IMG/VR virus record: IMGVR_UViG_3300030333_005156
Coordinates: 23,687-43,931 of that record
DNA from: a virus
Reading direction: 5' to 3' (one strand)
DNA: 20,245 bases
Made by a program: the position numbers and the translations under genes. Shown here piece after piece: positions 3,001 through 19,541 of the stretch. Position 1 is the first letter of the stretch, and each line of letters begins with the position of its first letter. The notes under the pieces are model-generated. The model was given only the letters and a program-made list of their open reading frames with translations. It was not told the DNA's origin and did not search any database.

Positions 3001-4681
3001 CTAAATAATAATCATCATCACATACCATATATGTTTTAAATCTTTCTATGTTATTTTTTTCATATAATACATTCCAACCAAAAAAATCATAATTTCTTTT
3101 ATCAACACCATCATGTCCTACCTCGGCTGCAGCCTCATAATAACTGATATCAACTCTAATTCTATTATAATCTAACACCTCTACAATTTTTGCAACATAA
3201 TCAACATTAAAAGTTGTGTCTATAATAGTAGGTGGTGCTCCAGGAATAATATTATTTTGTAAGTTTTCTGCATCTGCATTATTTCCTGCTTCTTGTTCTG
3301 GTGTTGTAGTTACTTCCCATGTAAATGTTGGATTATTTTGGGTACCACCAGTATAATATCCAGCATGACTACCATGACCTTCTTGATTTTCTGGAACTGC
3401 AAGTAACATTTTAATTCTATTTCTTTGTTCAAGAAAACGCTCTTGCCAATGTTTATTTTCTGTAGTTTTCCATTTACCTAAAGATGCTGCAACTATATTG
3501 TTTGCAAATATTGTATGGTGTTTATCTAATATAAGATTCCATACTTGAAATGGTGGTTTTTGAAAATATTCGGTTCCTATTTCTTTTGACATAAACCAAC
3601 CATCTTTTGTTCTGATTGGATGATGGTCTGTAGTGATAAGGTTTTTATATTTAACCATTTTGTCACCAAAACCTCTATCACTTTTTATTACTTTTTTAAC
3701 TCTTGCAACACCTTTATCTGTTCTGACTTTCATACCAGCTCTCATCATCTTGATTGGTATTTGTCTACCATTACTTAGTGTTACTTTAGTGTTAGGATGA
3801 AAACAAACACCATCATAATCAAACTCTGACCCACCATCAAAATCCTCTGATTCAGTTGTTTCATTCTCTGTTTGTTCTTCTTCTGTAAATGCATCTGGAA
3901 CACTATCGTCTACAAAGTCATCTCCCTCACCCATACTATCATCAAAGTCTTCAGGATTTGAATCTTCATATACTTCTTCAGTTACGGTATATTGAAATAA
4001 TCTTGGTATTCTAATCTCACCACCAACCATATTTTGAGTAAAACCTCTATCACCATCTTGTAAATTTGCAATTAAAGTATGTTCATTGTCATCATCAAAT
4101 GTAAGTGAACCATCAGCATCTGATTCTGGCATATTAATGGGTCTATATTTAACGAGAGTATTCATCTCTCTAAAGTTTTTAAAATATGTTTGGTTTTTAA
4201 AATCTTGAGTAGATACAATTACTTCACTTCTATCACCAGAAATGTGTTCAAGGACATATTTTAAATCTCTTAAGAATAATTCTTTAGGTGGGTTTTGATA
4301 TATTTCCTCTGCAGACATCCCTGCAACACTTGAATAGTATCTTGTTTCATTATTTAATACTTGTGTTTGTACTTGACCTGCATATATTTGACCCTCATCA
4401 TCAACAAATACACTTTGGTCTCTACCAGCTAATTTTCTTAAAAATTTATAAACAACTCTATAGGTTCCCTCATGAAAACCCTCGTCCCTAAAGAGTTGTC
4501 CAATATTTAAATCAATAAAACCATCTTCAACATTTGGTGATAATTTTTTAGTGAATATTAAATTGTCTTCCTCATCATATGCATGAACAATAATAAAGTC
4601 ATTACCTCTACCAAAACTACTATATACCCTACCTGGGTTATAATATAATTCTCTTTCTTCTGGTGTAAATCCATATTCCAT
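1..4681 (-). CDS. Giant tail/baseplate structural protein with embedded Hint domain and LamG-like domain (partial, C-terminus beyond window)
   Basis: I read this frame codon by codon and it is open from the ATG at 4681 to the window edge, giving at least 1,560 residues with no stop. The ATG overlaps the TAA of the upstream gene by one base (TAATG). Visible parts in order: an N-terminal region of about 240 residues that I do not recognise; a very acidic linker (about 240-292); a Hint domain (293-400); a long unassigned region; a concanavalin/LamG-like beta sandwich (about 980-1185), with TIEFRFRTP near its start and YIYLGG then SGSLMEYRLW near its end; and a Ser/Tyr-rich C-terminal part. It is the last gene seen in the baseplate operon after gp25 and gp6, where T4 carries the large wedge protein gp7, so a baseplate or tail-fibre role is inferred from position. 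I do not claim homology to gp7. Confidence 0.9.
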   Translation of the reverse strand, partial: MEYGFTPEERELYYNPGRVYSSFGRGNDFIIVHAYDEEDNLIFTKKLSPNVEDGFIDLNIGQLFRDEGFHEGTYRVVYKFLRKLAGRDQSVFVDDEGQIYAGQVQTQVLNNETRYYSSVAGMSAEEIYQNPPKELFLRDLKYVLEHISGDRSEVIVSTQDFKNQTYFKNFREMNTLVKYRPINMPESDADGSLTFDDDNEHTLIANLQDGDRGFTQNMVGGEIRIPRLFQYTVTEEVYEDSNPEDFDDSMGEGDDFVDDSVPDAFTEEEQTENETTESEDFDGGSEFDYDGVCFHPNTKVTLSNGRQIPIKMMRAGMKVRTDKGVARVKKVIKSDRGFGDKMVKYKNLITTDHHPIRTKDGWFMSKEIGTEYFQKPPFQVWNLILDKHHTIFANNIVAASLGKWKTTENKHWQERFLEQRNRIKMLLAVPENQEGHGSHAGYYTGGTQNNPTFTWEVTTTPEQEAGNNADAENLQNNIIPGAPPTIIDTTFNVDYVAKIVEVLDYNRIRVDISYYEAAAEVGHDGVDKRNYDFFGWNVLYEKNNIERFKTYMVCDDDYYLVTNENKDFFSTQELKRVFKLKQPLSDDIEQYKKVFFVEKRLPDHNDTIRLIPFIDEDPDGLFLQLPNLQSVENPINFRTTRLETHTSLLGSDDSVNKDIERKLISGSLLDVQVNTEFNRTSVDVNLQTDDIGFGNFVHFSSAERRIKNFKKKVELIEGYNKSSQSLVPISSSAGEISLLENKRQRVVNSFDPFEHYMYFESSSYVSSSAGQYHDNTWPKSNSSEPYTLIHSTGSAATTWFDTMISSASIYDIENKDRLVNNLPLHVVDDTQNNPFLEFMDMVGQQFDEIWVYTKHITDINTKSPNISEGISKDIAASYAKSLGLELANGNDLMILPEYLLGKGADGSSKYETPQEQVTEEIWKRLLNNLPFFVKSKGSIRCLKGILNCYGIPSTILRVREYGGPDNQERVSYEVKRKFTYALDFHASQYIKTLWTTDNDSIYPQTIEFRFRTPHSVGSSGSMVIAQKENDWAIHLKDNGTADDFGYLKFSISASTGEYGITSSLQPFYNDDMWSVMLTRISASGVPMSDDLTSRNVKYELTAKQYDSTRERIKFQTSSSLTTGIGHASSSAINAAFTGSGGSKYIYLGGQNTNFGARYSGSLMEYRLWSEPLSQSIFNNHVRAPKSYNGNTYSSSYHDLLIRHSLDNNINLNTTSYVTNVANKQNYYISAPTDTTGSANGFTTNTFRSLVDKEQLKVPNIGPTRRNATKIRIEDTTLTGNLSPESRREKSSQDFAPIDSEKVGIYFSPVDVINEDIMYSIADFNFDDYIGDPRDQYKLSYRGLQKLRTEYWQKYSRPNNFWDYLRILTYYDPSVFTQLKQWVPARSKATTGVLIEPNILERSKQIVGDRPEYDNRYYENAGEYEDGLLVTRFISGSRDDIYFDIGGSSDYHESEVNLRFQDNSGSLGTLNQPTLLKLNVVDQKTAYGYNYATASVTSGGEGTTFGEVLQPNISGSRLAEHNQEMVYFYSSSASASAHIPYSSSYIPSQHQSVYYDSNLYR
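3482..3805 (-). other. Hint (hedgehog/intein-type autoprocessing) domain inside the giant tail protein
   Basis: Residues 293-400 of the giant protein show the Hint blocks in order. Block A starts at Cys293 (CFHPNTKVTLSNG). Block B has the TxxH signature at 350-353, followed by HPI and a GW (ITTDHHPIRTKDGW). Block F is VWNLILDKHHTIFANNIV (380-397). At the C-terminal junction, where inteins end in His-Asn followed by Cys/Ser/Thr, the sequence is Ala-Ala followed by Ser400. The thioester-forming Cys and the block B His are kept and the Asn that cyclises in splicing is absent. About 108 residues leave no room for a homing endonuclease. By family knowledge this favours N-terminal cleavage, as in hedgehog or type-B bacterial intein-like domains, over protein splicing. 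Confidence 0.85.
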
Positions 4682-5045: not shown

Positions 5046-6221
5046 TTATCTCTCAATGTTTCTTACAACCTTAAATGACCATGCTGGGTCACTATAATAA
5101 TTTATTATTTCTTCTGATGTACCACTACCACTTACAACTTTAATTGAAATATCATAATGTCTTTCTGATTGAAAACTATCCATTCTTAGATTGAAATAAT
5201 TACCTGTTGAATCACAACTAACTTTAGAACCTGTTCCAAATGGAACAATAGTTTCTTCAGTAACAGAATCTTTAATTGAATAATAAGTTGATGCACTTGG
5301 TAGTGTTCTAATTGTTAGACCCTCAGGTGTAGTATTAAATACTCTATCATTATATCTCGGTCTACCAACTAATCTAAATCTTGATATTGATTTTTCTAAA
5401 TATTCTTCTCTTATACCTTTAAAATAAATTACGGTATCTTCCAATGCACTACCTGTTAGTTGTGTTAAACTTCCTGTTGACCAACTTGAATCATCCCAAA
5501 CAACCTCTAATGATGGTGGATAGATTGTGTGTGTTTCTCTTGAGAAAAATTGTAATGTCCCAAATCTTGAAGTTCCACCCTCATCTGAATCTGAATCACC
5601 ACTAAAGCTATAAGATGTTCCATAGGAACCTGTTGATTCTCTCTTAATTATAAATCCATTATTAGGATATATTGAACTTGAATGTATATGATTATTAACC
5701 AAATCAGTTACATCAAATCTAACATCTCGTTTATCATAAGTTAAATCATAAGATTGACTTATATTATATTGTGAATATGAATCTTGTGAACCAGTAAACC
5801 ATGCACCACCATCAGTAGTAATTGAACCAGTTACCCATGGTGTTTCTTTTTGTTGGTCTCTATATTTAAATGATGCACCATCTTCTGTTACAGGACTATC
5901 AAACTTTTTACCAGTTCCTGACTTCCAACTACCACTAATCATATAGATATGTAAATTTTGTTCTGCTTCTAAATCTTTTGAACCAGCATCATATAAATTT
6001 AAATAAAATTTTGCAGTAGTAGGTATCTTACCATCTTGTATTGATTGTGATACATATGAATAATCTACTTCCAATAATATACGAGATATATTTATTGTGC
6101 TACCATCATCACTTACTTCTTTAACAACTTCAAGTATCTCATCGTGACCTGCATTTAATGATGAAGTAGTTCCACCAGAAAATAATGTTGTATCCTTTTT
6201 TATATATTCAAAATAATGCAT
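5046..6221 (-). CDS. Beta-rich virion structural protein, DNRLRE-like N-terminal half
   Basis: 391 residues. The ATG overlaps the TAA of gp6 (TAATG) and has AGGAGA seven bases upstream. The N-terminal half has the layout of DNRLRE-type extracellular beta domains: a start with a string of small residues and LNAGHDEILEV, then SRILLEVDYSYV, a hydrophobic KFYLNLYDAG strand, a SGSWKSGTG turn, and RFDVTDLVNNHI followed by NNGFIIKRE. DNRLRE domains are known in large surface-exposed fibrous proteins. The second half (about 225-391) is also beta-rich, ending DPAWSFKVVRNIER. It lies between gp6 and the giant tail protein, so I infer a baseplate-proximal structural or fibre-attachment protein. The DNRLRE assignment is pattern-based and tentative. 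Confidence 0.8.
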   Translation of the reverse strand: MHYFEYIKKDTTLFSGGTTSSLNAGHDEILEVVKEVSDDGSTINISRILLEVDYSYVSQSIQDGKIPTTAKFYLNLYDAGSKDLEAEQNLHIYMISGSWKSGTGKKFDSPVTEDGASFKYRDQQKETPWVTGSITTDGGAWFTGSQDSYSQYNISQSYDLTYDKRDVRFDVTDLVNNHIHSSSIYPNNGFIIKRESTGSYGTSYSFSGDSDSDEGGTSRFGTLQFFSRETHTIYPPSLEVVWDDSSWSTGSLTQLTGSALEDTVIYFKGIREEYLEKSISRFRLVGRPRYNDRVFNTTPEGLTIRTLPSASTYYSIKDSVTEETIVPFGTGSKVSCDSTGNYFNLRMDSFQSERHYDISIKVVSGSGTSEEIINYYSDPAWSFKVVRNIER

Positions 6222-8197
6222 TAGAAATCTCCTACTACTCTACCCTCAATATCTGAATCTGGGAATTTTACTTCAAATATACTTGGGTCTAATGATGGAT
6301 ATACCACACCATCTCTTGATGCTGATGATATGTCATATATGTTACCACTATATTCACTTGTTACTAAGTGTTTATTTTCAATACAAACTATATCTTTATT
6401 TGGATTATTGTGGTCAGGTGGAACAATACTTGCAACACCATCAACTAAAGAAATTTGATAGGCAATATCACTTAATACTATTGGTTGACCAATTTGCCAC
6501 TTATCAATTTTAAAATAGTCTTTTACCTTTTGGATTGCTCTAAATAATACATCATTTTTATTAAATCCTCTTTTTGTAATAATATTAAATCTAACACCTA
6601 TATTAATAATATATGCATTCTTAATGTTGATTGCATCTGTTACCATTCTATATTGTGATAGATAAATTTTTAAATTTTCTTTTACTGCTCTATTTACAGC
6701 AATAAGTTTTTTATTTGCATCATATCCAAGAACATACATATTTAATGCCAATGGATTTGGATTAATACTTACATTTTCATTTTCTACTACTTCACCAGTA
6801 ACACTATCTACATATGTTTCAGTAGCCTTTTCTAATTGTTCATCTTGAACAATAAATGCTTTTGCAATATTACCATATTTTTGTGGTAATGAATATATTC
6901 TTGTAATATAATCTTTTTGTGTTACTGAACGACCTTGTGCATTAAATATAGATGCTGCATTTAAACGAATAGATTCTATTGGTTCCTCACCACTACCACC
7001 TGATGCAGGTTTTGGGTTTGTAAAAGATAAACTTTCTTCTGCAGTTTGTTTTTTTGTTGAATCTAAATTATCACCTGTAATTGTAAAAGTTACATCACTT
7101 GAATTTGTGATGGTATTAGAAATTACATTATGTTCAACATCTCCACCATGATTATATTTTACGGTTAAAGTTGTATTACTTGGTGCAAGACCAAAAGTTT
7201 TTGTTTTTAAAAAATTACTTGGGTCAAATGTTTCATCTATCTTTGAAACACCTACTCCTAAAGAAGAACCAACACTATCTGGATTTGGTATTATTTCTTC
7301 ATCAGGATTATCTGATATACCAGCACCAAACAATAATTCTGTTTTTAAATCTGTTCCTCTAATATTTGTTGAAAATCTTTTTGAAGTTTTAATTAATTTT
7401 AATAGATAAGGTGTATCGTTTGCATATTGTGCAAGGTTTGGGTCATTGGTTGTAGAATTTTCTTCATCTTCATATACGGTATCTTGTGCAAGATAAGGAA
7501 CTTGATACCAATTATTACCATTACTATCTGTTACAGAAATAACCTCAGTTACATTAGGTTCAGATAAAACAATTTTGTCAAACTTTTTTGCAGAAGTAAA
7601 TGTAAATGTTTCTGATTTTCTTTGACCACTTTTTACGAGAGCCTTTTTAGTTAATTTAAATTCTGTTGGAACATTACCACTTGATGGTTCCAATGCCTCT
7701 TTAACAAGTGGGTCTAATGAACTTGACACTTTAAAGTTAACATCATCCAACATAGTAAAATCAACACCACTTGTTGATGATACAACACTATTAGAACTCA
7801 TTATACCAGCATAACTTAAATCAGGAATATACTCATCCGATGCATTTACCTTTGCAGGAACATTCATTGATACTTCTATCTCTGCAGTTGCAGGTGAAGC
7901 TGTTTTTGGTTTGTATCCTAAAGATTGTGCAATATCATAAATATTCTTTTTCTCTTCTGCTTGTAAAATTAATGTTTCTCTAAATTGATTATCCACATAA
8001 AAATTTAATACATCACCAACATATGCTGCCATCTCTATGAACATCATACCTGGGTCTGATTCATTAAAGTCATTATATGTATTTGGAAAATATGATTTTG
8101 CAAACTCAATAATATTCTGTCTTATTGTTGAGAAATCTCTTCCAAGATAATTTACTTCTTTTTTAACTACTTTTTTATTTGTTCCATAATCAGACAT
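6221..8197 (-). CDS. 6: Baseplate wedge protein, gp6 / baseplate J family
   Basis: 658 residues, close to the length of T4 gp6. The N-terminus carries the hallmark of T4-like gp6 proteins: LGRDFSTIRQNIIEFAKSYF, then DFNESDPGMMFIEMAAYVGD (residues about 19-63), followed by a FYVDNQFRETLI helix. The C-terminal half has the baseplate J-type core around ARDGVVYP and earlier AASIFNAQGRSVTQKDYITR (about 412-432), where the protein typically begins its second conserved part. In T4, gp6 dimers join neighbouring wedges into the ring around the hub and drive sheath-contraction signalling. The start is supported by GGAG inside the end of gp25, seven bases before the ATG. The order gp25 then gp6 is typical of contractile phages. 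Confidence 0.95.
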   Translation of the reverse strand: MSDYGTNKKVVKKEVNYLGRDFSTIRQNIIEFAKSYFPNTYNDFNESDPGMMFIEMAAYVGDVLNFYVDNQFRETLILQAEEKKNIYDIAQSLGYKPKTASPATAEIEVSMNVPAKVNASDEYIPDLSYAGIMSSNSVVSSTSGVDFTMLDDVNFKVSSSLDPLVKEALEPSSGNVPTEFKLTKKALVKSGQRKSETFTFTSAKKFDKIVLSEPNVTEVISVTDSNGNNWYQVPYLAQDTVYEDEENSTTNDPNLAQYANDTPYLLKLIKTSKRFSTNIRGTDLKTELLFGAGISDNPDEEIIPNPDSVGSSLGVGVSKIDETFDPSNFLKTKTFGLAPSNTTLTVKYNHGGDVEHNVISNTITNSSDVTFTITGDNLDSTKKQTAEESLSFTNPKPASGGSGEEPIESIRLNAASIFNAQGRSVTQKDYITRIYSLPQKYGNIAKAFIVQDEQLEKATETYVDSVTGEVVENENVSINPNPLALNMYVLGYDANKKLIAVNRAVKENLKIYLSQYRMVTDAINIKNAYIINIGVRFNIITKRGFNKNDVLFRAIQKVKDYFKIDKWQIGQPIVLSDIAYQISLVDGVASIVPPDHNNPNKDIVCIENKHLVTSEYSGNIYDISSASRDGVVYPSLDPSIFEVKFPDSDIEGRVVGDF

Positions 8198-11253: not shown

Positions 11254-11475
11254 ATGAAGGAAATCATAACAATAGTTAAGGGATATGTAGATGATTTAGC
11301 TCATCTTCTTTTATCCTTGGTTGCCATAGGTGCTGTTTCTGAAGTAATTTTTGGAACTGGTATCTTCGGTGTAAATGTTATCGGTAACCTAACATCAATC
11401 ATAAACACATTCGGCGAATCTGGATTCGCTGGACTCGTCGCATTGTTGGTGTTGGTGGGTTTATTCCGTAAATAG
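11254..11475 (+). CDS. Small two-helix membrane protein, function unknown
   Basis: 73 residues with a CGGAG ribosome binding site about eight bases before the ATG. The N-terminus is amphipathic (MKEIITIVKGYVDDLAHL). There are two hydrophobic helices at about 15-35 and 57-71, joined by a Gly/Asn-rich loop with FGVNVIGNLTSIINTFG. The tail is a short basic FRK. It lies on the opposite strand to all neighbouring long genes, behind a late promoter and before a strong terminator, so it is probably a single-gene late transcript. Size and topology would fit a holin-like or virion membrane protein, but charge pattern and context do not decide it. Confidence 0.8.
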   Translation: MKEIITIVKGYVDDLAHLLLSLVAIGAVSEVIFGTGIFGVNVIGNLTSIINTFGESGFAGLVALLVLVGLFRK

Positions 11476-11552: not shown

Positions 11553-11588
11553 TAATCAACCGCATATGTGTTGATTATTAACGCGTTA
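11553..11588 (+). promoter_or_regulatory. Two inverted repeats in the leader of the lysine-rich peptide gene
   Basis: TAATCAAC (11553-11560) and GTTGATTA (11570-11577) form an 8-bp inverted repeat around a nine-base centre. It is followed at once by the perfect palindrome TAACGCGTTA (11579-11588). Both lie between the preceding terminator and the AGGAGT ribosome binding site at 11593. They could be operator sites or an RNA leader structure; I see no convincing plus-strand -10/-35 pair here. Confidence 0.4.
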
Positions 11589-11603
11589 GTACAGGAGTAT
11601 ATT

Positions 11604-11801
11604 ATGAAGACAATACTAACTGGTATACTTTCTCTTTTAATTCTCTTTGGTTCAGTTCCAACTGCACAAGCATCTGATATGAATAATAAAGCTGGTATGG
11701 AAGAAGTGAAGAAGAAGAAAAAGAAGAAAGGAAAGAAACTTGGTGAAAAAGGTAAGAAGAAGAAAAAGGGTTTTTGGTCTAAAGTCTTTGGAACTAAGTA
11801 G
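11604..11801 (+). CDS. Secreted lysine-rich small peptide, function unknown
   Basis: 65 residues. I chose the ATG at 11604 because AGGAGT ends five bases upstream; a longer reading from 11568 has no ribosome binding site and would bury the signal peptide. Residues 1-23 form a clear Sec signal peptide: MKT, a hydrophobic core (LTGILSLLILFG), then an AQA cleavage motif before Ser24. The mature part is 42 residues with 18 lysines, including runs of seven (36-42) and five (51-55), and ends GFWSKVFGTK, an aromatic basic tail. A polycation exported to the periplasm could bind membranes, peptidoglycan, lipopolysaccharide or DNA; a lysis or envelope role is speculation. It lies on the plus strand, converging with the methyltransferase gene. 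Confidence 0.8.
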   Translation: MKTILTGILSLLILFGSVPTAQASDMNNKAGMEEVKKKKKKKGKKLGEKGKKKKKGFWSKVFGTK

Positions 11802-11841: not shown

Positions 11842-12756
11842 TTACCAAAATTTATTATTGGTGTTTATAATATAATCTTCAAAATTATCTTTAAATTTTC
11901 CTAATCGTTTTGCAGTTTCTTTTGGATTACCCTTTGAAAACATTAAAACATTTTGATGTGACTTAGGAACTTTTCTACTTGTGTTCATAAATTTTTCTGC
12001 TCTCATACCAGCAGTTGCAGGTTCTTGTAATAAAATCATTTCATTATAATAAGACATTCCAGCATCTTCAAACGCCTGAATCGTATCTGAAACAAAACCA
12101 ACATAAGAATCTTTTTCTCTTACCTCACCAACAACAAATACCGCAAAAGAATTATCTTCTAATTTATCACAAGATTTTTTAATAATTTCTCTATATTGTT
12201 TTAAAAAAGTTTTATAATCCATATTAGAAATATCTTCTGGGTTATCTGAATATTGTTCAAGATTATAATAAGGTGGACAAGAAAATAAAAAATTATATTT
12301 ACCTTTTACCTTATCTATATTTAAAGAATTATCATTTATCCAAGTTGGTATGTGAGTATCACATATTTTTTTACCTTGAATTATATTATGTTCTATTTGA
12401 TTTTTAGATAAATCAACACCAGTATAATTTCTTTTTAATTTACTTGCAACAATTCCTCTAACTGAACCACCTGCAAAACAATCTAAAATTTTATCATCTT
12501 CTTTTGTAAACCATCTATACATACATTCACATAAAACAGGGTCAAATACAGAAGTACTATTTTGTCTCATTCGTTTCATCAAATCACTAAGACTTAAAAG
12601 ATTTTCTCCTCTACCTAATTCACTTTCTATACCAAGATTTTTCCATAACTTTTTTCGTTTTTTCCACCTAAGAGATTTTACATCAAGAATACTAATAGGT
12701 GGAATTACGAATACTTGTTCAAGTCTACCAGATTGAGATTTAACTTCATTAGACAT
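11842..12756 (-). CDS. DNA amino-methyltransferase (N6-adenine or N4-cytosine type)
   Basis: 304 residues from the ATG at 12756, four bases after the gp55-type stop; a longer reading would need a TTG deep inside that gene. The N-terminus has FVIPPISILD and a SELGRGENLLSLSDL segment, a layout I associate with phage DNA methylases. Motif I, the S-adenosylmethionine-binding loop, is ILDCFAGGSVRG (about 90-101). Motif IV, the catalytic loop, is FSCPPYYNLEQYS (about 158-170, with the PPY intact). Motif I precedes IV. Expected to methylate an exocyclic amino group in DNA; the target sequence cannot be predicted. It is last in its operon, followed by a strong hairpin terminator. Confidence 0.9.
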   Translation of the reverse strand: MSNEVKSQSGRLEQVFVIPPISILDVKSLRWKKRKKLWKNLGIESELGRGENLLSLSDLMKRMRQNSTSVFDPVLCECMYRWFTKEDDKILDCFAGGSVRGIVASKLKRNYTGVDLSKNQIEHNIIQGKKICDTHIPTWINDNSLNIDKVKGKYNFLFSCPPYYNLEQYSDNPEDISNMDYKTFLKQYREIIKKSCDKLEDNSFAVFVVGEVREKDSYVGFVSDTIQAFEDAGMSYYNEMILLQEPATAGMRAEKFMNTSRKVPKSHQNVLMFSKGNPKETAKRLGKFKDNFEDYIINTNNKFW

Positions 12757-12760
12757 ACTA

Positions 12761-13486
12761 TTATAGATTATTCCAACTACCTGTATATCTTGTCTCAACT
12801 GAACCAGTAGCGAGATAATTTTTTTGTAAATTTACATGATGTTTTTTCATCACATTAACCACACGAGTAATATGTTGTGTATTACTTCCTGTCATCTCAC
12901 GAATTAAAATATACAATGCCTTCTTATTAAAGTTCTCTATATTTTCACGAGTTTCAAAAAGATAAACAACAGAATTTGCAACATCAATATCTTGTTTTCT
13001 TTTAAACACGGTAGTTAAATTATTTGTCCAATACTCAACAAACAAATCAAGATACTCTTTCTTTGCACTTTTCATATCAAGTAAATCAGTTTCACGAACA
13101 GGGTCTCGTTTGTAATCTGTAACTTCTTCACCATCGTGTTGTTTCATTCGTTTGTAGTTATTGTTATTATGTAAAATTAAGTAATTCTTTGCAACAATAC
13201 TAAAGTAAGAGAATGCCTTACCCTTACCCTCTGTGAATTTGTGCATATTCATATATAGAAAACTAACAACCTCGTGCATTACATCTGAACTTGGAACATC
13301 AAAGTAATAAAACTTAAATGTATGAATTATATTTTCTGCCAACTTCTCAAATGGAACTCTAATGTGTTCATTATAAATTCGTTCCCTCATATGTGGACGA
13401 GTTTCTTTATTGTGTCTAATGATTGCATCTTCTGTTCCTTGATGGAAGTAATATCTTGGTGAACCTTTTTTAGCTTTTCTTGGCAT
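12761..13486 (-). CDS. 55: Late-transcription sigma factor, T4 gp55-type
   Basis: 241 residues. Residues about 45-110 show the sigma region 2-like core of gp55 proteins from T4-like phages: PFEKLAENIIHTFKFYYFDV, then HEVVSFLYMNMHKF and GKGKAFSYFSIVAKNYLI, followed by an Asn-rich LHNNNNYKR. Gp55 binds host core RNA polymerase and recognises TATAAATA late promoters, such as the one at 11168. The start overlaps the upstream TAA (TAATG) and has AAGGA nearby. T4 gp55 ends in an acidic, hydrophobic sliding-clamp-binding tail; here the C-terminus reads TRYTGSWNNL, and I see no such acidic motif. Confidence 0.88.
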   Translation of the reverse strand: MPRKAKKGSPRYYFHQGTEDAIIRHNKETRPHMRERIYNEHIRVPFEKLAENIIHTFKFYYFDVPSSDVMHEVVSFLYMNMHKFTEGKGKAFSYFSIVAKNYLILHNNNNYKRMKQHDGEEVTDYKRDPVRETDLLDMKSAKKEYLDLFVEYWTNNLTTVFKRKQDIDVANSVVYLFETRENIENFNKKALYILIREMTGSNTQHITRVVNVMKKHHVNLQKNYLATGSVETRYTGSWNNL

Positions 13487-13737
13487 TATATTTCCTTTTC
13501 TGTTATAGTGTTTAATTCATTTATTGTTTCTTTGATACCCTCAAATACTACACCTATTTCATCATCGGCTTCAAATTTACCCTCTGAATCTAATTGGTCA
13601 AGTGTAGTCTTAGTCTGTATCACTCTGTCTGCATATTCTTCAACCCAAGCTTCTAATCGTTCTACTTTTCTAAAAAGATTGAAACTTGTATATCCAAATG
13701 TAACTGCAAGACATCCAAAAATTATCTCTAAGACCAT
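13486..13737 (-). CDS. Small N-terminally membrane-anchored coiled-coil protein
   Basis: 83 residues, family not named. Residues 1-19 (MVLEIIFGCLAVTFGYTSF) form a hydrophobic segment. A charged helix follows (FRKVERLEAWVEEYADRVIQ) and then an acidic, probably coiled-coil part ending INELNTITEKEI. It overlaps the end of the upstream methyltransferase by ten bases, has GGGAG before the ATG, and its TAA overlaps the gp55 ATG. The coupling to the sigma factor gene is tight, but no function follows from the sequence. Confidence 0.8.
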   Translation of the reverse strand: MVLEIIFGCLAVTFGYTSFNLFRKVERLEAWVEEYADRVIQTKTTLDQLDSEGKFEADDEIGVVFEGIKETINELNTITEKEI

Positions 13738-14399
13738 TTCTCTATACTCCCTATTGTTGATTGATTAATTCTATTCATACCCATTTCAAATGTTTCACTA
13801 TTTATTTCGGAACCCAAATATTTACGATTTAATTTATTACATGCAAGTGCAGTAGTTCCAATTCCCATAAATGGGTCATACACAATATCACCCTCTTCAG
13901 TATAATTCTCTATACATCTTTCTGCAACTTCTTGTGGCATATTATATGAATATCCTTTATATGAATGGTGTGGATGATACCAAGTATCATATTTAAATAA
14001 TTTTGTATTTTTAGATTTAAAACTCTTTCGTGCATAAGACATAACAAAGGCATAATTATATCTAAACATATTTATCTCTCTTGACTTTTCCCATATCTTT
14101 TGATTCAATAAATCATAACCTAAATTTTTCATAATGTCTGTAATATACTGATGTTTTGGTATTGTTTTTCTTTTAAATCTTCTATCTGTTACTACAATTG
14201 ACACAACATTTTTTCTTGGATTAAACTTACTATAAATTTCTTCCATCCAACCAAAATACTTATCATCATCTTTAATTGGTTCTAAGTTCATCTCATGATA
14301 CTCAGGTGGGGAAAAGAATACATAATCGTATTCTAAATCCCTACCTAAAGTTATGAGACAATCTTCATTATAGATACTACTTTTCTCCGAATAACTCAT
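13728..14399 (-). CDS. DNA amino-methyltransferase with variant catalytic motif (SPPE)
   Basis: 223 residues from the ATG at 14399, which has AAAGGA eight bases upstream; the longer reading lies deep in the HD gene. Motif order is IV then I, the order of beta-class enzymes. Motif IV reads VFFSPPEYHEMN (about 27-38), so the aromatic residue expected after Pro-Pro is Glu, with Tyr one place later. Motif I is VYDPFMGIGTTALAC (about 173-187), a textbook S-adenosylmethionine site. A MSYARKSF strand and a YSYNMPQEVAERCIE segment before motif I are typical of the N6/N4 methylase fold. Probably a DNA modification enzyme, but the catalytic change raises doubt about activity. It overlaps the HD gene by 23 bases. 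Confidence 0.87.
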   Translation of the reverse strand: MSYSEKSSIYNEDCLITLGRDLEYDYVFFSPPEYHEMNLEPIKDDDKYFGWMEEIYSKFNPRKNVVSIVVTDRRFKRKTIPKHQYITDIMKNLGYDLLNQKIWEKSREINMFRYNYAFVMSYARKSFKSKNTKLFKYDTWYHPHHSYKGYSYNMPQEVAERCIENYTEEGDIVYDPFMGIGTTALACNKLNRKYLGSEINSETFEMGMNRINQSTIGSIEKWS

Positions 14400-15156
14400 C
14401 AAATAAATCCTTTGCTGAAGAAGTTGGTTGTGTTTCAACTTTCTCTTTTATCTGTTTGTTTACCGATTGTTTAATATTCTTAACTGATTTATTTACTTTT
14501 TCAGTAGATTTCTTTTCTGAATATTTCCATTCAGTATACTCTGCTCTTGTTGCCATATGGTCAGCCCAATGGATAAGATAAGGTAAACTTGAATGAAAAC
14601 TATGTTCAGGTTTAAATGTTTTTAAATATTGAACATTTGCATCATCATACATACCATCACTAACTTTAATTGCTAACCACTCTAATTGAGTTACTTTAAC
14701 ATCAAAGTGTTGTAATAGATATAATGCTCTATCTGTAACACCCATAAACTGCATTTCAGGATTCTGTGTAAACCACTCGTTGAGTTTCTTTCGTCTCCAA
14801 TCATCTTCTTGAACCAAGTAATACTCATGTTCTAAGTCACCGACTTTACCTAAATCATGATGTAATGCACAAAAAACTAATTCCTCATCAGTATAGTCAA
14901 TGACTGCACCGATAGATTCATATACTTTTGTTAACTTCCTTGCAGTGTCCACTAAGTGTAACACATGAAGAACATAACCACCTGCAAATGCATAGTGATA
15001 ATTTGGTTTACCACTTGCAGGTGCAACAATGATTCTGTCTTCAAAGAAATCATACATCTTATTTAAATTATCAAGTCGTTCACCTGTGAATGTTTCATTC
15101 ACAATGTTTCTCAACTTAGTATAATTGTCTAATAGTTGTTGTTCTGTTAAATTCAT
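14377..15156 (-). CDS. HD-domain phosphohydrolase
   Basis: 259 residues. The metal-binding HD signature is visible: GGYVLHVLHLV (59-69, His64/His67), ALHHDLGKVGD (97-107, the His-Asp pair at 100-101) and a distal Asp in IHWADHMATR (about 199). HD enzymes hydrolyse phosphoester bonds, often of nucleotides; the substrate here is not decided by sequence. HD hydrolases of this kind are common in the nucleotide-metabolism regions of marine T4-like phages. The last 50 residues are a Lys/Ser-rich, probably disordered tail ending KDLFDELFGEK. The gene is the first after the sigma70-like promoter at 15196-15225. Confidence 0.88.
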   Translation of the reverse strand: MNLTEQQLLDNYTKLRNIVNETFTGERLDNLNKMYDFFEDRIIVAPASGKPNYHYAFAGGYVLHVLHLVDTARKLTKVYESIGAVIDYTDEELVFCALHHDLGKVGDLEHEYYLVQEDDWRRKKLNEWFTQNPEMQFMGVTDRALYLLQHFDVKVTQLEWLAIKVSDGMYDDANVQYLKTFKPEHSFHSSLPYLIHWADHMATRAEYTEWKYSEKKSTEKVNKSVKNIKQSVNKQIKEKVETQPTSSAKDLFDELFGEK

Positions 15157-15242: not shown

Positions 15243-16556
15243 TTAATCAACATACCAATCTGATTGTTTGTCACTTGGATATTTGTAACTACTATCCACT
15301 AACCATTTTCTTAACTCTGGTCCTGATTTAACATCTATAATTAAATGATATCTATCCTCTTCACCAAAGTTAATAGCAGTATGTGGTTTTCTCATATCTA
15401 AATACCATAACTCACCTTTACCCATTTTTGATTTAGTAACACTACCATCACAATTCCATTGAGTAAACTCAACCTTTGGATTTGTCTTTAATGGAAAGTG
15501 TAGTCTTGCCCATTGTCCATCACTAATACCAGCCTCTACATCTTGTCTATCAGTATGTCTTTCAAGTTCACCCTCACCTTGACTTAATTTCAAGATACGA
15601 ATTCTTTCATGTTCAAATGGTAAGAGTTTAGCAAACTTCTCTACTTCAGTAAGTCTTTCTCTAAGTGGTGTATCTTCTACTTTCCACTCTAACTTTTCTG
15701 CATTTTCTTTTCTCCACTTTTGATTCATCTCGGCAGGTTTGATAATAAAGTCTTCTTTACCACCATAACCACGAACCACAATACCACTCCATGAATTACC
15801 TTTGTTGTAATTACTATAGTGGTTAGCAAAGTCTTCTTGTAGTGCAAAGATTTGTTCCATCAATGGGTCTGTATCTTGAACATCTAAGTCTAATCTCTGT
15901 AATGAGATTTCTTGTGATTTTGCAAGTTCACCTGTATGTTCTCCTTTGAACCAATAACCATACATATCTGCAAAACTCGTAATCAAATTATCTCTTCTTT
16001 CATAACCTAAGTCTCTTAGTATACCAACCATTCTTCTGTTTTGCATATCACACTCAACTACGGTTGTTCCCTCATCAAAGAAACCACCACCCTCTGATTC
16101 ATGTCTTTTTATCAAATCATATAAGTGTTGTTCATTACCAGGATAACATGCAATCTCACGAATATATGCATCGGTTTTACAATTTAATTTATATTCTGCT
16201 CCTGTAAAGGATTTAATTTTTTTAAATTGTGTTTTCATGTTCTTCATATTATAATATAAAATACATGCAACAATTTTACCATCGTTGTTCTCAACCCAAT
16301 CAACTTCATATGCATGACCCTCACGACCCTCTACATGGTCAAATGCTAATTGTAAGTCCATTTTATTTATTTTTCTAAATGGGTCTCGTAATCTCGTGTT
16401 ACCATATTGTTCACGAATTTTTTTCTCACCCTCTGGTCTTTGTGTTTCCATAAAACAATCTAATAAATTCTGATATGTTGGTGTATCATCATAAATCCAT
16501 TGTTTACCATTATGATATGGTTTTGGTATCTCTACATCGTAATCTCTAAATTTCAT
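15243..16556 (-). CDS. GNAT-like / 2OG-Fe(II) oxygenase (aspartyl-hydroxylase-like) fusion
   Basis: 437 residues from the ATG at 16556, with AAGGAG eight bases upstream; a GTG nine bases earlier is too close to that site. The N-terminal half (about 70-200) has the GNAT acetyltransferase pattern: a KIVACILYYN strand, AYIREIACYPGN in the place of the acceptor/CoA strand, and a late VECDMQNRRMVGILRDLGYE typical of motif B. The C-terminal half is an Asp/Asn-hydroxylase-like double-stranded beta-helix: ERHTDRQDVEAG supplies His334 and Asp336 (HxD), ARLHFPLKTNP follows, and LWYLDMRKPHTAINFG supplies the distal His392, with Arg402 as likely 2-oxoglutarate contact. It lies between two methyltransferase genes five bases after the first. 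Substrate unknown: a DNA base, a protein or a small molecule. Confidence 0.82.
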   Translation of the reverse strand: MKFRDYDVEIPKPYHNGKQWIYDDTPTYQNLLDCFMETQRPEGEKKIREQYGNTRLRDPFRKINKMDLQLAFDHVEGREGHAYEVDWVENNDGKIVACILYYNMKNMKTQFKKIKSFTGAEYKLNCKTDAYIREIACYPGNEQHLYDLIKRHESEGGGFFDEGTTVVECDMQNRRMVGILRDLGYERRDNLITSFADMYGYWFKGEHTGELAKSQEISLQRLDLDVQDTDPLMEQIFALQEDFANHYSNYNKGNSWSGIVVRGYGGKEDFIIKPAEMNQKWRKENAEKLEWKVEDTPLRERLTEVEKFAKLLPFEHERIRILKLSQGEGELERHTDRQDVEAGISDGQWARLHFPLKTNPKVEFTQWNCDGSVTKSKMGKGELWYLDMRKPHTAINFGEEDRYHLIIDVKSGPELRKWLVDSSYKYPSDKQSDWYVD

Positions 16557-16561
16557 CTCCG

Positions 16562-18115
16562 TCACTCCTTTGGTTTATAAAATATCAATATTGGTTCAAA
16601 CTTAAAGTAATCACCACCACGACTAAGTGGATGTGATTTTATCATTACTGAATTCTTTACATTGGATGCATCTATCCCAACCATTCTCGTCATCAACATC
16701 TTGTAAATACCTTGATATTCACCACCAAGACTTTCCACGATATCTATACTATCTTGTTCTAATGGAATGTATTTATCACTACCTACTTTGATATCTGCAA
16801 TGTTCCAACACAAATATCTATCAGGTTTTAAATATGTATACATTGTTGTTAAGGTTGGTTTCAAAAAGTTATCTCTCCAATCATCATATGCACCGAACTT
16901 TTTAAAACTTTGATTTTCATCTTGAGAGTATTGTTCTCTATTGAAATAAGGTGGGGAAGTAAAAACCATATCTAACTTACCCTTATACTTCTGAAACTCA
17001 GGATTGTTCCCAACTTCTTCACTACCCTCTCTAAATATTTCGTATGTGTTAGGTTTTGCCTTACCCCAAAAAGGATTAGGATTAAAACAATGTTCATTAT
17101 AGTAATCTGCTACTGCCTCATATCTACCCTCGTTATCAGGGTTTGGGTCAATACCAACATAATGTATATTCCTATCACTACACATAGCACCTAAAATTCT
17201 TCCACCCCAACCGCTTGACGGATCGCTTATTATTAAATTTAAGTCCTTGATATGTTTTGTAAAATGTTCATACAAGAACTTCGCGGTCAAGGGTGGAAAA
17301 TTTACTGCTGGTTGTCCAAGTCCTAATCTAAATACTTGAAGAGCACTTGGAAAAATTCTTTGTTTTCTTTTATACTTTCTAATATAATAATGATAATATC
17401 TTTTATCACCATTCTTTAACTCATAACTATCTTTTAATTCATCACCAATTGTTCTAAGGTTTTGTTCTGTTAAACATCCTGTAGATAAATACATTTCCAC
17501 TTCACTCTTTTTCAATATAAGATATTGTGAATTTATATCTACAGGTTTAGTATCACTTTGTCTCACCACCATAATACCATAAGTTTGGTCTTGATTAGTT
17601 TGTTTTAAGAAATCAGATACATTACTCATACCCATTTCTTTTACCTTAACACTCAAACTAAAAGTATACATTGAGTCTTTAAATAAAGACCTCAACATTG
17701 CTTTCTTGAATGTTTCTCTTAACTCATCATCTTTAAAGTGGTCATATATTGAAGTAGCTCCATCACTACTTACACCTGTAGAAATCTTTGTCTTTAACAT
17801 TGTTGGAAAGAATTGATTTACTCCACTTGCATACTTATTAAAGTTCTTAACTACTTTTGTTTTTTCATCAAAGAAGCTCTCAACATCATACCCAAATAAT
17901 TTTTTCCAATTACTGATTATCTCATTCTCATTCTGACCAATAACTGGTGGTTGACCATTCTCATCCCATTGGGTAATAACATATGTTCGTAAATCATCAA
18001 TCCATTTCTCTACTTCTGAATCACTCTTATGTAGTAATTCATCGTAGGTTATATTAATTGGATTGTCTTTACTCGCAATGTTAGACTTTTCATAAAACCA
18101 TTTTTGTTTATTCAT
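16562..18115 (-). CDS. Large DNA amino-methyltransferase with unassigned N-terminal domain
   Basis: 517 residues. The C-terminal half is the catalytic domain: motif I LIISDPSSGWGGRILGA (294-310), acidic motif II in HYVGIDPNPDNEGR (318-331), motif IV MVFTSPPYFNREQYS (383-397, SPPY intact), and a KPDRYLCWNIADIKVG strand. The first 280 residues match nothing I recognise and may be a target-recognition or partner domain; they include a basic, aromatic stretch RYYHYYIRKYKRKQR (239-253). The ATG overlaps the TAA of the 3D-domain gene (TAATG), and the stop is five bases before the GNAT-2OG gene, so these are coupled. Predicted to methylate adenine N6 or cytosine N4 in DNA. Confidence 0.88.
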   Translation of the reverse strand: MNKQKWFYEKSNIASKDNPINITYDELLHKSDSEVEKWIDDLRTYVITQWDENGQPPVIGQNENEIISNWKKLFGYDVESFFDEKTKVVKNFNKYASGVNQFFPTMLKTKISTGVSSDGATSIYDHFKDDELRETFKKAMLRSLFKDSMYTFSLSVKVKEMGMSNVSDFLKQTNQDQTYGIMVVRQSDTKPVDINSQYLILKKSEVEMYLSTGCLTEQNLRTIGDELKDSYELKNGDKRYYHYYIRKYKRKQRIFPSALQVFRLGLGQPAVNFPPLTAKFLYEHFTKHIKDLNLIISDPSSGWGGRILGAMCSDRNIHYVGIDPNPDNEGRYEAVADYYNEHCFNPNPFWGKAKPNTYEIFREGSEEVGNNPEFQKYKGKLDMVFTSPPYFNREQYSQDENQSFKKFGAYDDWRDNFLKPTLTTMYTYLKPDRYLCWNIADIKVGSDKYIPLEQDSIDIVESLGGEYQGIYKMLMTRMVGIDASNVKNSVMIKSHPLSRGGDYFKFEPILIFYKPKE

Positions 18116-18669
18116 TAATTATTCAATACTAAATTTGTCTTTACTATTTTTGCACTATCAAACTTATAAGGTTTGGTTCCTGGGGATTCCAATATATCAA
18201 TACGATTAACAAATCTTTTATTCATCGTATCTTTAACTTGGTAAACACCATCCTTACCATCAGTTCCTTTTAAGACAATGAAGTCACCATAATCTAAAAA
18301 ACCACCATGTCGTTTCAGAAGATTTCTACTGACCGCTATAAATTTATATTCACTTGCCTTGTGGACTCTTATTCGCGTTCCATCCGCGAGAATGTTCGGT
18401 GTAGAATCTGTCTGTTGACGAACTGGATGATACATCGTTACCGTCACTTCCATTCCCTCTAATTTGAACTCCTCTATAAGAGAACTTAATCTCTCATTTT
18501 CTACTTGAAGTTCATTTGTTTTTAATAACAAATTTTCTTTATACTTTTCAAAAATTTTCGTCCAAACAAAAGTATTAAAAATCAATAATGGCATTAATAT
18601 CATTATTGGTAATTTCAGATTGTTCATTTCATAATTCCTAAAGTTAAAGAAATCTTTTACAATAGTCAT
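18115..18669 (-). CDS. Membrane-anchored 3D-domain (double-psi beta-barrel) protein
   Basis: 184 residues from the ATG at 18669, which has AGGAGA nine bases upstream; an ATG 33 bases earlier overlaps the previous stop (ATGA) but has no ribosome binding site. Residues about 20-37 are a membrane helix (LPIMILMPLLIFNTFVW), followed by a coiled-coil stretch (40-70). Residues 74-179 look like a 3D domain: VTVTMYHPVRQQTDSTPN, then ADGTRIRV, IAVSRNLLK and GVYQVKDTMNKRFVNRIDI, with three Asp at 88, 147 and 158 as in the family name. 3D domains share the fold of MltA and RlpA and are linked to peptidoglycan cleavage. Predicted periplasmic and anchored in the inner membrane; a cell-wall role in entry or lysis is inferred. 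Confidence 0.82.
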   Translation of the reverse strand: MTIVKDFFNFRNYEMNNLKLPIMILMPLLIFNTFVWTKIFEKYKENLLLKTNELQVENERLSSLIEEFKLEGMEVTVTMYHPVRQQTDSTPNILADGTRIRVHKASEYKFIAVSRNLLKRHGGFLDYGDFIVLKGTDGKDGVYQVKDTMNKRFVNRIDILESPGTKPYKFDSAKIVKTNLVLNN

Positions 18670-18678
18670 ATATAAATA

Positions 18679-18684
18679 TCTCCT
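18679..18684 (-). promoter_or_regulatory. Ribosome binding site that decides the 3D-domain gene start
   Basis: AGGAGA on the minus strand, nine bases before the ATG at 18669. The alternative start at 18702 has only A/T-rich sequence upstream, so the shorter protein is preferred. Confidence 0.75.
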
Positions 18685-18698
18685 AATATATTTAAAAT

Positions 18699-19019
18699 TC
18701 ATTTTATTTGTAAACTTTTAATTAGTTCACTTTCATTTCGTTTCATATAATGTTGAATAACAAATCCCTCAACTATATGTGTAAAGAACCAAAAGAAACT
18801 AAGTAATGGTACAAATATTTGGTAATCCATATTCAATTTTGATATTCCTAACCATAATAAGAATATCATTCCAATTGATTTTGTTAAGAATCCCATTCCT
18901 GAAAATCCTAATGAATAAACATTACCTCTTTGTACCACCACATAAATTCCAACCAATAAATGCATTAGGTTTAGAATTATCGGTGAAAGAACACCTAACA
19001 AAATATATTCTATTATCAT
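18699..19019 (-). CDS. Three-helix membrane protein, function unknown
   Basis: 106 residues with three hydrophobic helices at about 5-29, 42-62 and 66-88 and a basic, charged C-terminus (YMKRNESELIKSLQIK). No catalytic motif is visible. An AGAGG ribosome binding site lies six bases before the ATG. The gene begins 21 bases after the tmRNA 3' end. It directly precedes the membrane-anchored 3D-domain gene, so it may act with it at the inner membrane; a holin-like role is possible by topology but unproven. Confidence 0.78.
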   Translation of the reverse strand: MIIEYILLGVLSPIILNLMHLLVGIYVVVQRGNVYSLGFSGMGFLTKSIGMIFLLWLGISKLNMDYQIFVPLLSFFWFFTHIVEGFVIQHYMKRNESELIKSLQIK

Positions 19020-19039
19020 TTATAACCTCTTTTCATTTG

Positions 19040-19382
19040 TGGAGCTGGGCGGAATTGAACCGCCGTCCAGTCTATCTTCCAAGTCAAGTCATTCACAACT
19101 TAGTTAGTTCCAAATCGGTAGTCACTAACAACCCACCATGTCCCATTTTACTCAGAATGGTTTAACTGAGATTTCATTTATACTCTAAACCTGAAGTGAG
19201 TGGTCTACCGATTCCGACGCCACAATCCTAATATCGGTGTCTTAGGTGTGACGGCCTACGAACTAAGCGTAAGCAAAATTGACTTGATTGCCAATTAGGT
19301 TTGTGGGTCTTTTTTAGTGAGTCTTACCCAAACTCCTGTTGCACTTAATCTCTTCCAATACCTGTCAATACCAGTCAGCCCC
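19040..19382 (-). ncRNA. ssrA: tmRNA (ssrA), one-piece, phage-encoded
   Basis: This 343-base RNA has all main parts of a one-piece tmRNA. The 5' end GGGGCTG (from 19382) pairs with CAGCTCC at the 3' end, giving the alanine-type acceptor stem with its G-U wobble at the third pair. The T arm is GGCGG-TTCAATT-CCGCC, and the CCA end is not encoded. The D-loop region reads GGTATTGACAGG, followed by AAGTGCA, both close to the bacterial consensus. Pseudoknot 1 is visible: GAGT pairs with ACTC and TGGGT with ACCCA. The RNA would rescue ribosomes stalled on broken mRNAs and tag the peptides for proteolysis. It lies four bases after the 51-residue gene and must be cut out of a longer transcript, as I see no promoter of its own. 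Confidence 0.95.
19263..19292 (-). other. tmRNA tag reading frame (GNQVNFAYA, stop UAG)
   Basis: Read from GGC at 19292, the frame gives GNQVNFAYA and then UAG. The stop codon lies in the loop of a hairpin formed by GCTTACG and CGTAGGC, which matches the helix 5 arrangement of known tmRNAs. Preceding bases (TAATT) keep the A at -4. The alternative frame from GCA ends in a Ser-rich polar tail, unlike known tags, which end in small hydrophobic residues. With the tRNA-borne alanine the tag would be ten residues. Confidence 0.75.
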
Positions 19383-19385
19383 ATA

Positions 19386-19541
19386 TTAATCAATCTCATC
19401 GTGGTCTTCTTCCCACTCAAATATTTCATCACCATCAATTTGAATCGCTATCTCTAAATTATCTATTAATGTTTCAATACGATTCCAATCTTCTTCATTA
19501 TATGCCTTTTCTAACTCTGATTTAATCTCTGCTAAGGTCAT
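19386..19541 (-). CDS. 51-residue acidic protein, function unknown
   Basis: This short frame has a strong start: AGGAGT six bases before the ATG at 19541. The protein starts MTLAEIKSELEKAYNEEDWN, continues as an amphipathic helix with LIDNLEIAIQIDGDEIFEWE, and ends in DHDEID. It overlaps the end of the secreted beta-rich protein gene by 20 bases and stops four bases before the tmRNA. Codon-level sense and the ribosome binding site support a real gene; no family is recognised. Confidence 0.75.
   Translation of the reverse strand: MTLAEIKSELEKAYNEEDWNRIETLIDNLEIAIQIDGDEIFEWEEDHDEID

Follow-up and report, generated by a model that had tools for sequence, protein, structure and literature searches.

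We propose that the virus record studied here comes from a marine T4-like phage and carries a functional one-piece tmRNA, which would replace the tag of the host by a tag that is probably a poorer signal for ClpXP; we put the chances of this reading at roughly four in five. Comparison of related sequences shows a complete tmRNA fold maintained by covariation, with the resume codon in its usual position and GNQVNFAYA-UAG as the tag frame. It also shows that an AYA-like end in place of LAA is a trait of the family, and that most members extend the tag to 34–43 codons. The DNA analysed (20,245 nt; hereafter the window) belongs to an IMG/VR virus record of 48,414 bases.

When the window was searched with Rfam (cmscan), a single match was obtained at gathering thresholds: the tmRNA model RF00023 at positions 19037–19382 of the minus strand, with a score of 89.1 bits (E = 9e-34; gathering score 47 bits). 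The match spans positions 1–374 of the 374 positions of the model and is not cut. On the basis of this match and of covariation among 15 relatives, the one-piece tmRNA gene was placed at 19040–19382 (minus strand), i.e. 343 nt up to the discriminator base. The discriminator is the A at 19040 and the next three bases are CAA, so that CCA is absent from the gene. Since the gene reads GGGGCTG...CAGCTCCA in unpermuted order, the tmRNA is of the one-piece type; the permuted order (alphaproteobacterial type) is refuted by the acceptor halves at 19382 and 19041 and by the end-to-end match of the model. The original prediction of a phage-encoded one-piece tmRNA is borne out by these data: the covariance model, proposed as a check, accepts the fold well above the cut-off and with all its parts in order; the elements that had been named (acceptor stem, T arm, PK1 and a hairpin with the stop codon in its loop) are all found in the gene; and the tag GNQVNFAYA, with its AYA end and single UAG stop, is read in the sequence. 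ARAGORN did not call the tmRNA gene in the window.

An 84-pair structure with four pseudoknots was written from the window sequence and its pairs were counted on a structure-free DNA alignment (A1) of 15 distinct relatives, i.e. 15 of the 16 short-tag genes described below (L069 was left out). On these relatives 92.5% of the cells were paired, versus 35.0–43.5% when the partners were slid. Both sides had changed in 37 pairs, and the covariation score was 0.370, versus 0.179 after shuffling (0/500) and at most 0.102 with slid partners. The best-supported elements are the acceptor stem, H2, PK1, the T arm and PK2; less well supported are PK3 (78% and 78%), the outer helix of PK4 (76%) and helix 15 (87%). 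Beyond the elements first named, the fold also has PK2, PK3, PK4 and an extra helix.

The acceptor stem (helix 1; this and all following elements of the RNA are on the minus strand) is made of the 5′ strand GGGGCTG at 19376–19382 and the 3′ strand CAGCTCC at 19041–19047, with 97.1% of cells paired. The G3.U70 pair, which is the identity pair for alanine, is present in 15/15 relatives; as in other tmRNAs, there is no anticodon arm. Both the T arm (GGCGGTTCAATTCCGCC, 19048–19064, helix 16) and PK1 (GAGT/ACTC and TGGGT/ACCCA, 19304–19335, helices 5 and 6) are 100% paired, with changes on both sides in 4/5 and 6/9 pairs, respectively; a PK1-like helix pair is present in all 87 unique genes among the matches listed. 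The stop-codon hairpin H5, GCTTACG[CTTAGTT]CGTAGGC (19254–19274, helix 7), is paired in 94.9% of cells. For PK2 (CGTCAC.CCTAA/TTAGG.GTGGCG and ACCGAT/ATCGGT, 19207–19253, helices 8–10) the values are 86–97%, and 9/17 pairs have both-side changes. PK3 (ACTC/GAGT and TTCA/TGAA) and PK4 (CTCAG/CTGAG and CCATT/AATGG) occupy 19143–19201; their helices 11–14 are paired in 76–87% of cells, in a mixture of two sequence types, A and B, each of which is found in both tag classes. An extra hairpin (GTTAGT/ACTAAC, 19103–19129, helix 15) follows PK4 and precedes the 3′ strand of H2; it is 86.7% paired, with both-side changes in 3/6 pairs.

The tag frame, identified from the sequence and the family pattern, is GGC AAT CAA GTC AAT TTT GCT TAC GCT TAG (19263–19292, minus strand), i.e. 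GNQVNFAYA followed by a stop. Its resume codon lies 11 nt past PK1 and has an A at −4; according to the available text of a study of resumption, the codon is expected 11–12 nt after PK1, with an A four nucleotides upstream of it (PMC2481249). Spacings of 11–12 nt were found in 65 of the 87 unique genes among the matches listed; in the remaining 22, the PK1 helix was mostly placed too far 3′ by the greedy search. An A at −4 is present in 87/87 (among the matches listed), at a place where the search pattern partly required it.

Relatives were gathered with a pattern on the 3′ part of the RNA and by baseplate and tag searches; contig counts for the family are to be read as lower bounds. The 3′ pattern occurred at least 142 times in the collected loci. 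Twenty of the 142 matches were dropped because the gene ran past the 5′ end of its locus, and the 122 genes that could be cut out whole correspond to 87 unique sequences. RF00023 was above cut-off in 8 of 48 records with baseplate homology (two records found by their tag being subtracted); the tmRNA search covered 48 of the 80 baseplate loci. Seven matches were rejected as not being tmRNAs: L106 and L107, out of 19 matches in one relative search, and, in another search, all but one of six bacterial matches. Since blastn of the RNA gene against 50,697 phage records gave no match, an annotated relative is lacking; of two annotated phages tested for a tmRNA, neither had one above cut-off.

Two tag classes were found among the 87 unique genes of the matches listed. 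The short class (16/87) has tags of 9–11 codons ending in AYA(A); the frame is open in 16/16 genes and specifies 11 distinct tags: GNQVNFAYA (window), DNQVNFAYA, GNTANYAYA, GNTANFAYA, GNYANVAYA, GNMSNFAYA, GTYSNVAYA, GTEFNYAYA, GTQFNYAYA, GTQANLTYAYA and DNYTQYAYAA. The long class (71/87) has tags of 34–43 codons, about four times longer, which share the conserved core GLxIDWHLA and end in an AYA-like sequence, as in GDTSLDGLDIDWHLANLEMGFDNFVEPVQNDQPSYAYAA. A scan of viral contigs for this core returned at least 120 stretches; over all collected loci it occurs at least 134 times, 120 of them with a T arm downstream. Of these 120 occurrences among the matches listed, 107 fit the resume-codon pattern and 13 do not. 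The fitting ones give 71 distinct tags, 70 of 34–42 codons and one of 49, the latter starting with SDKSLEGLVIDWHFATSEMGFDNY and known in two copies without the usual stop after YAYA. This sister class, found in contigs of marine viruses, shares the RNA backbone, gene neighbourhood and AYA-like end of the window gene, from which it differs in its 34–43-codon tag, in the GLxIDWHLA core of that tag and in a hairpin where translation resumes. In a baseplate tree of nine phages for which both genes were available, long- and short-tag members are intermingled; taken with the occurrence of PK3/PK4 types A and B in both classes, this points to an exchange of tag modules among these phages.

The gene is tightly inserted among its neighbours. 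A small ORF just upstream (19386–19541, minus strand) has its stop ending 3 nt before the 5′ end of the tmRNA, which makes co-transcription and processing likely; we infer that the RNA is processed out of an operon transcript. Around the tmRNA, no terminator-like sites were found, and promoter-like sites were no commoner than in shuffles. Downstream come a gene for a 106 aa, membrane-like protein (18699–19019, minus strand), starting about 20 nt past the RNA, and a gene at 18115–18702 (minus strand) whose family neighbours the tmRNA in short-tag and long-tag relatives alike: it is found at 3 kb or less from the tmRNA in 52 of the 87 genes among the matches listed (14 short, 38 long). The product of the latter belongs to a PHROG of unknown function and is, we presume, '3D-domain-like'. 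In the relatives, the tmRNA is preceded by a small membrane-like protein in 35/87 genes, 34 of them long-tag, and by what we take to be a peptide-deformylase-like gene in 26/87 (both among the matches listed). CCA is encoded in only 4 of the 87 listed genes.

Turning to the lineage, the baseplate protein shares 47% identity with its counterpart in Microcystis phage Mel-JY01 and 40% with the one in Flavobacterium phage immuto. The major capsid protein of a 164,845-base long-tag record has 53, 51 and 36% identity to those of Mel-JY01, immuto and Rhodothermus phage RM378, respectively. Judged from these protein similarities, the relatives are T4-like and come closest to phages of Microcystis and Flavobacterium. 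The one-piece model was above cut-off in 114 of 118 genomes drawn from the phylum of Pedobacter (Bacteroidota). Tags were sought with ARAGORN in the best-scoring 30 of the 114 matching genomes and in the Pedobacter; the program gave a tag in 30 of these 31, with LAA or MAA at the end in every case and the GExNYALAA form in several. The window tag, GNQVNFAYA, ends in neither, and the AYA end is indeed unusual, as had been claimed. Bacteroidota tags (e.g. GENNYALAA, GEYNYALAA and DEYNYALAA) resemble it in their 9 codons, in the G or D that comes first and in an N-Y-A in mid-tag; they differ in that AYA replaces ALAA in the window (0/30 Bacteroidota tags end in AYA), and their phylum may not be that of the host. 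An alphaproteobacterial host, which the original prediction had considered as a condition only, is unsupported, the relatives being phages of Microcystis and Flavobacterium and, weakly, Rhodothermus phage RM378. The foreign origin to which a one-piece form would then have pointed need not be assumed if the host is a bacteroidote, because Bacteroidota tmRNAs fit the one-piece model. What stands of the first interpretation is thus the phage-encoded, one-piece RNA with an AYA tag and a UAG stop, and what lacks support is its alphaproteobacterial premise.

The nearest phage relatives and the tag format point toward a possible origin from a Bacteroidota-type tmRNA. One bacterial MAG ('bacterium TMED198') contains, on contig L232 at 6025–6475 (minus strand), a long-tag tmRNA beside three tRNAs; this contig looks like phage sequence in a bacterial bin. 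MAG binning is unable to settle the host, because the TMED198 MAG also carries a tmRNA of its own, with the tag ADYGYAAAA.

With the bacterial one-piece tmRNA (ssrA, RF00023) the window RNA shares a TLD with G3.U70, PK1–PK4, the stop hairpin, a 9-codon tag and a resume codon 11–12 nt past PK1. It differs in its AYA end and in the additional hairpin (helix 15) that precedes the 3′ strand of H2; in addition, its gene does not encode CCA and the phage record is without smpB. Phage-borne ssrA genes are already known. In the portion available, a 2014 survey reports ten phages with ssrA, among them Bxz1-like mycobacteriophages and Bacillus phage G, which have other hosts (PMC4131195). The accessible text of a 2022 study reports a tmRNA in 402 of 18,146 phage genomes, detected by ARAGORN, and proposes that phages might tag host proteins (PMC9004378). 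The tmRNAs of Melnitz and other marine phages that it describes are likewise marine and phage-borne, but they are two-piece, permuted and alphaproteobacterial in type, whereas that of the window is unpermuted. Among the open-licence papers listed by searches on phage tmRNA tags and on long tags, none describes AYA tags or tags of 34–43 codons in its title or the opening lines of its abstract. In the present family, a single RNA scaffold carries a naturally occurring series of tags, and the conservation of this family over many viral contigs makes an alteration by phages of the fate of rescued proteins directly testable.

Most likely, the RNA works with the SmpB of the host during infection and substitutes the phage tag. 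It would be cut out of the operon transcript in the infected cell, be supplied with CCA and alanine by host enzymes (CCA-adding enzyme and alanyl-tRNA synthetase), bind host SmpB and enter ribosomes stalled on broken mRNA, where A-GNQVNFAYA would be added in place of the host tag. The phage RNA would in this way compete with the host tmRNA and keep ribosomes available, and the host degradation signal would be replaced by a sequence that is probably less well recognised by ClpXP. No smpB gene was found in its own record or in any of the 36 tmRNA-bearing related records searched, most of which are fragments. As regards proteolysis, the part available of a study of the E. coli tag reports that altering the last or penultimate alanine raises the KM for ClpXP, and that altering the leucine before the last two alanines raises it modestly (PMC7652416). 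Because alanine changes raise KM, AYA is predicted to be a poorer ClpXP signal; these data come from E. coli and AYA itself is not among them. By analogy, different protease handling of the AYA tag is plausible.

Other explanations were considered, of which we regard a protective or rerouting tag as possible, at odds somewhat short of even. Tagged products would evade ClpXP or be sent to another host protease or adaptor, and the long form would add a docking peptide, GLxIDWHLA. A penultimate Tyr and an antepenultimate Ala stand where E. coli ClpX makes its contacts with LAA (PMC7652416, available part), and the long core, which may be a docking motif, is common to 71 distinct tags, themselves collected by that core. 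The long tag, core included, is predicted to be unstructured, with low confidence (pLDDT 62), as a linear motif may be. ClpP was found in 1 of 37 records (L320, record G068 of the long-tag class; a ClpP-like protease, 116 bits), so that phage-borne ClpP is not general. Against rerouting, no adaptor or partner gene was found and the core has no counterpart: there was no match to the long tag in phages (tblastn, E ≤ 1) or to the long core in the PDB (phmmer, E ≤ 10), and DWH-like motifs outside tmRNAs in the collected loci amount to two weak look-alikes. We only tentatively suggest that a widespread lineage of T4-like marine phages reprograms what becomes of rescued proteins, by an AYA end in place of the LAA signal of the host and, in most members, by a conserved tag of 34–43 residues that contributes a docking motif and has its start within an RNA hairpin. 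If true, trans-translation would be here a phage-controlled labelling system and not host quality control, and the long tag would mostly exceed the range of 8–35 residues given in the available text of a review (PMC8012679).

It is rather unlikely, in our judgement, that the tag is neutral, i.e. that the RNA merely adds rescue capacity and that AYA is fixed by the stop hairpin and not by proteolysis. The A-Y-A codons are in or adjoin the 5′ strand of the well-paired H5 (GCTTACG/CGTAGGC, 94.9%), yet AYA-like ends persist despite differing H5 sequence. In the long tags, the nucleotide sequence is under strong RNA constraint at synonymous sites: Ser4 is TCG in 61/63 and Gly7 is GGG in 65/65, codons that are rare elsewhere (TCG, 392 of 8,386 Ser codons; GGG, 453 of 7,890 Gly codons in the long open frames of the loci). 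The resume codon pairs with codons 4–5 in a hairpin that is kept in 98–99% of cells, with double changes in two pairs, and the long-class PK2 has double changes in 9/14 pairs; a candidate long-range helix within the long tag (GGUUG/CAACC) showed zero double changes and is unproven. Against neutrality, the long-tag peptide is kept through codon changes at Leu14 (TTA/CTA/TTG) and His13 (CAT/CAC), and dN/dS is 0.48 in frame versus 1.16 and 1.30 in the two shifted frames (230 pairs, not independent, of tags equal in length; L196 was left out of this count, and L166 out of alignment A2). Differences at codon positions 1–3 number 1531, 1022 and 2314 in the long tags and 970, 1114 and 1016 at the same positions of the next 72 nt. 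When the upstream context is used to place the resume codon, the long frame is open to the AYA-like end in 70/70 tags, and the two other frames are open equally long in 1/140. From these patterns, the long frame is judged to be under coding selection.

It is very improbable that the RNA is a decoy that titrates SmpB or blocks trans-translation, the mechanism put forward for mycobacteriophage DS6A and its TLD-only RNA (PMC4131195, portion available): a decoy could do without a reading frame, but here the frame is conserved, together with the stop hairpin and the context of the resume codon.

Resumption could, in the long class only, take place later, at the site chosen by ARAGORN, giving a tag of 11–24 codons with the first part as an RNA spacer. 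ARAGORN found 47 and missed 40 of the 87 unique genes among the matches listed. In the short class it found 4/16, with the correct tag each time, and missed 12/16; in the long class it found 43/71 (among the matches listed), all 43 being given 11–24 residues and never the full tag. These calls, and the conserved RNA pairing at the early resume site, would suit a late start. However, ARAGORN's starts are 22–93 nt past PK1, versus 11–12 nt for the early start in most genes, the early segment is conserved as coding sequence and the early context is the same as in the short class, so that late resumption is hardly credible; the A at −4 is present at both starts and does not discriminate. As ARAGORN misses genes and shortens long tags, annotations may understate both the number of tmRNAs and the length of their tags.

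Finally, a functionless relic or attachment-site copy of a host tmRNA, which could be imagined since ssrA can serve prophages as an integration site (PMC9004378, accessible text) and since ARAGORN rejects the window gene, has next to no probability in view of the compensatory changes in most helices, the intact gene in 87 unique variants (among the matches listed), the T4-like lineage and the packing of the gene between same-strand genes.

Some other genes of the window may be mentioned. Two small frames (11254–11475 and 11568–11801, plus strand) lie opposite the surrounding genes, one of them with a lysine-rich end; no PHROG match was found for either. Three nearby genes (11842–12798, 13728–14438 and 16562–18115, minus strand) have N6/N4 DNA methylase domains (PF01555), and a 440-residue protein (15243–16565, minus strand) has an aspartyl/asparaginyl beta-hydroxylase-like end (PF05118, 37 bits). 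A Vint/Hint domain (PF14623, 60.7 bits, residues 292–423), possibly an intein-like self-processing insert, is present in a tail-region protein of 1,560 residues (2–4681, minus strand).
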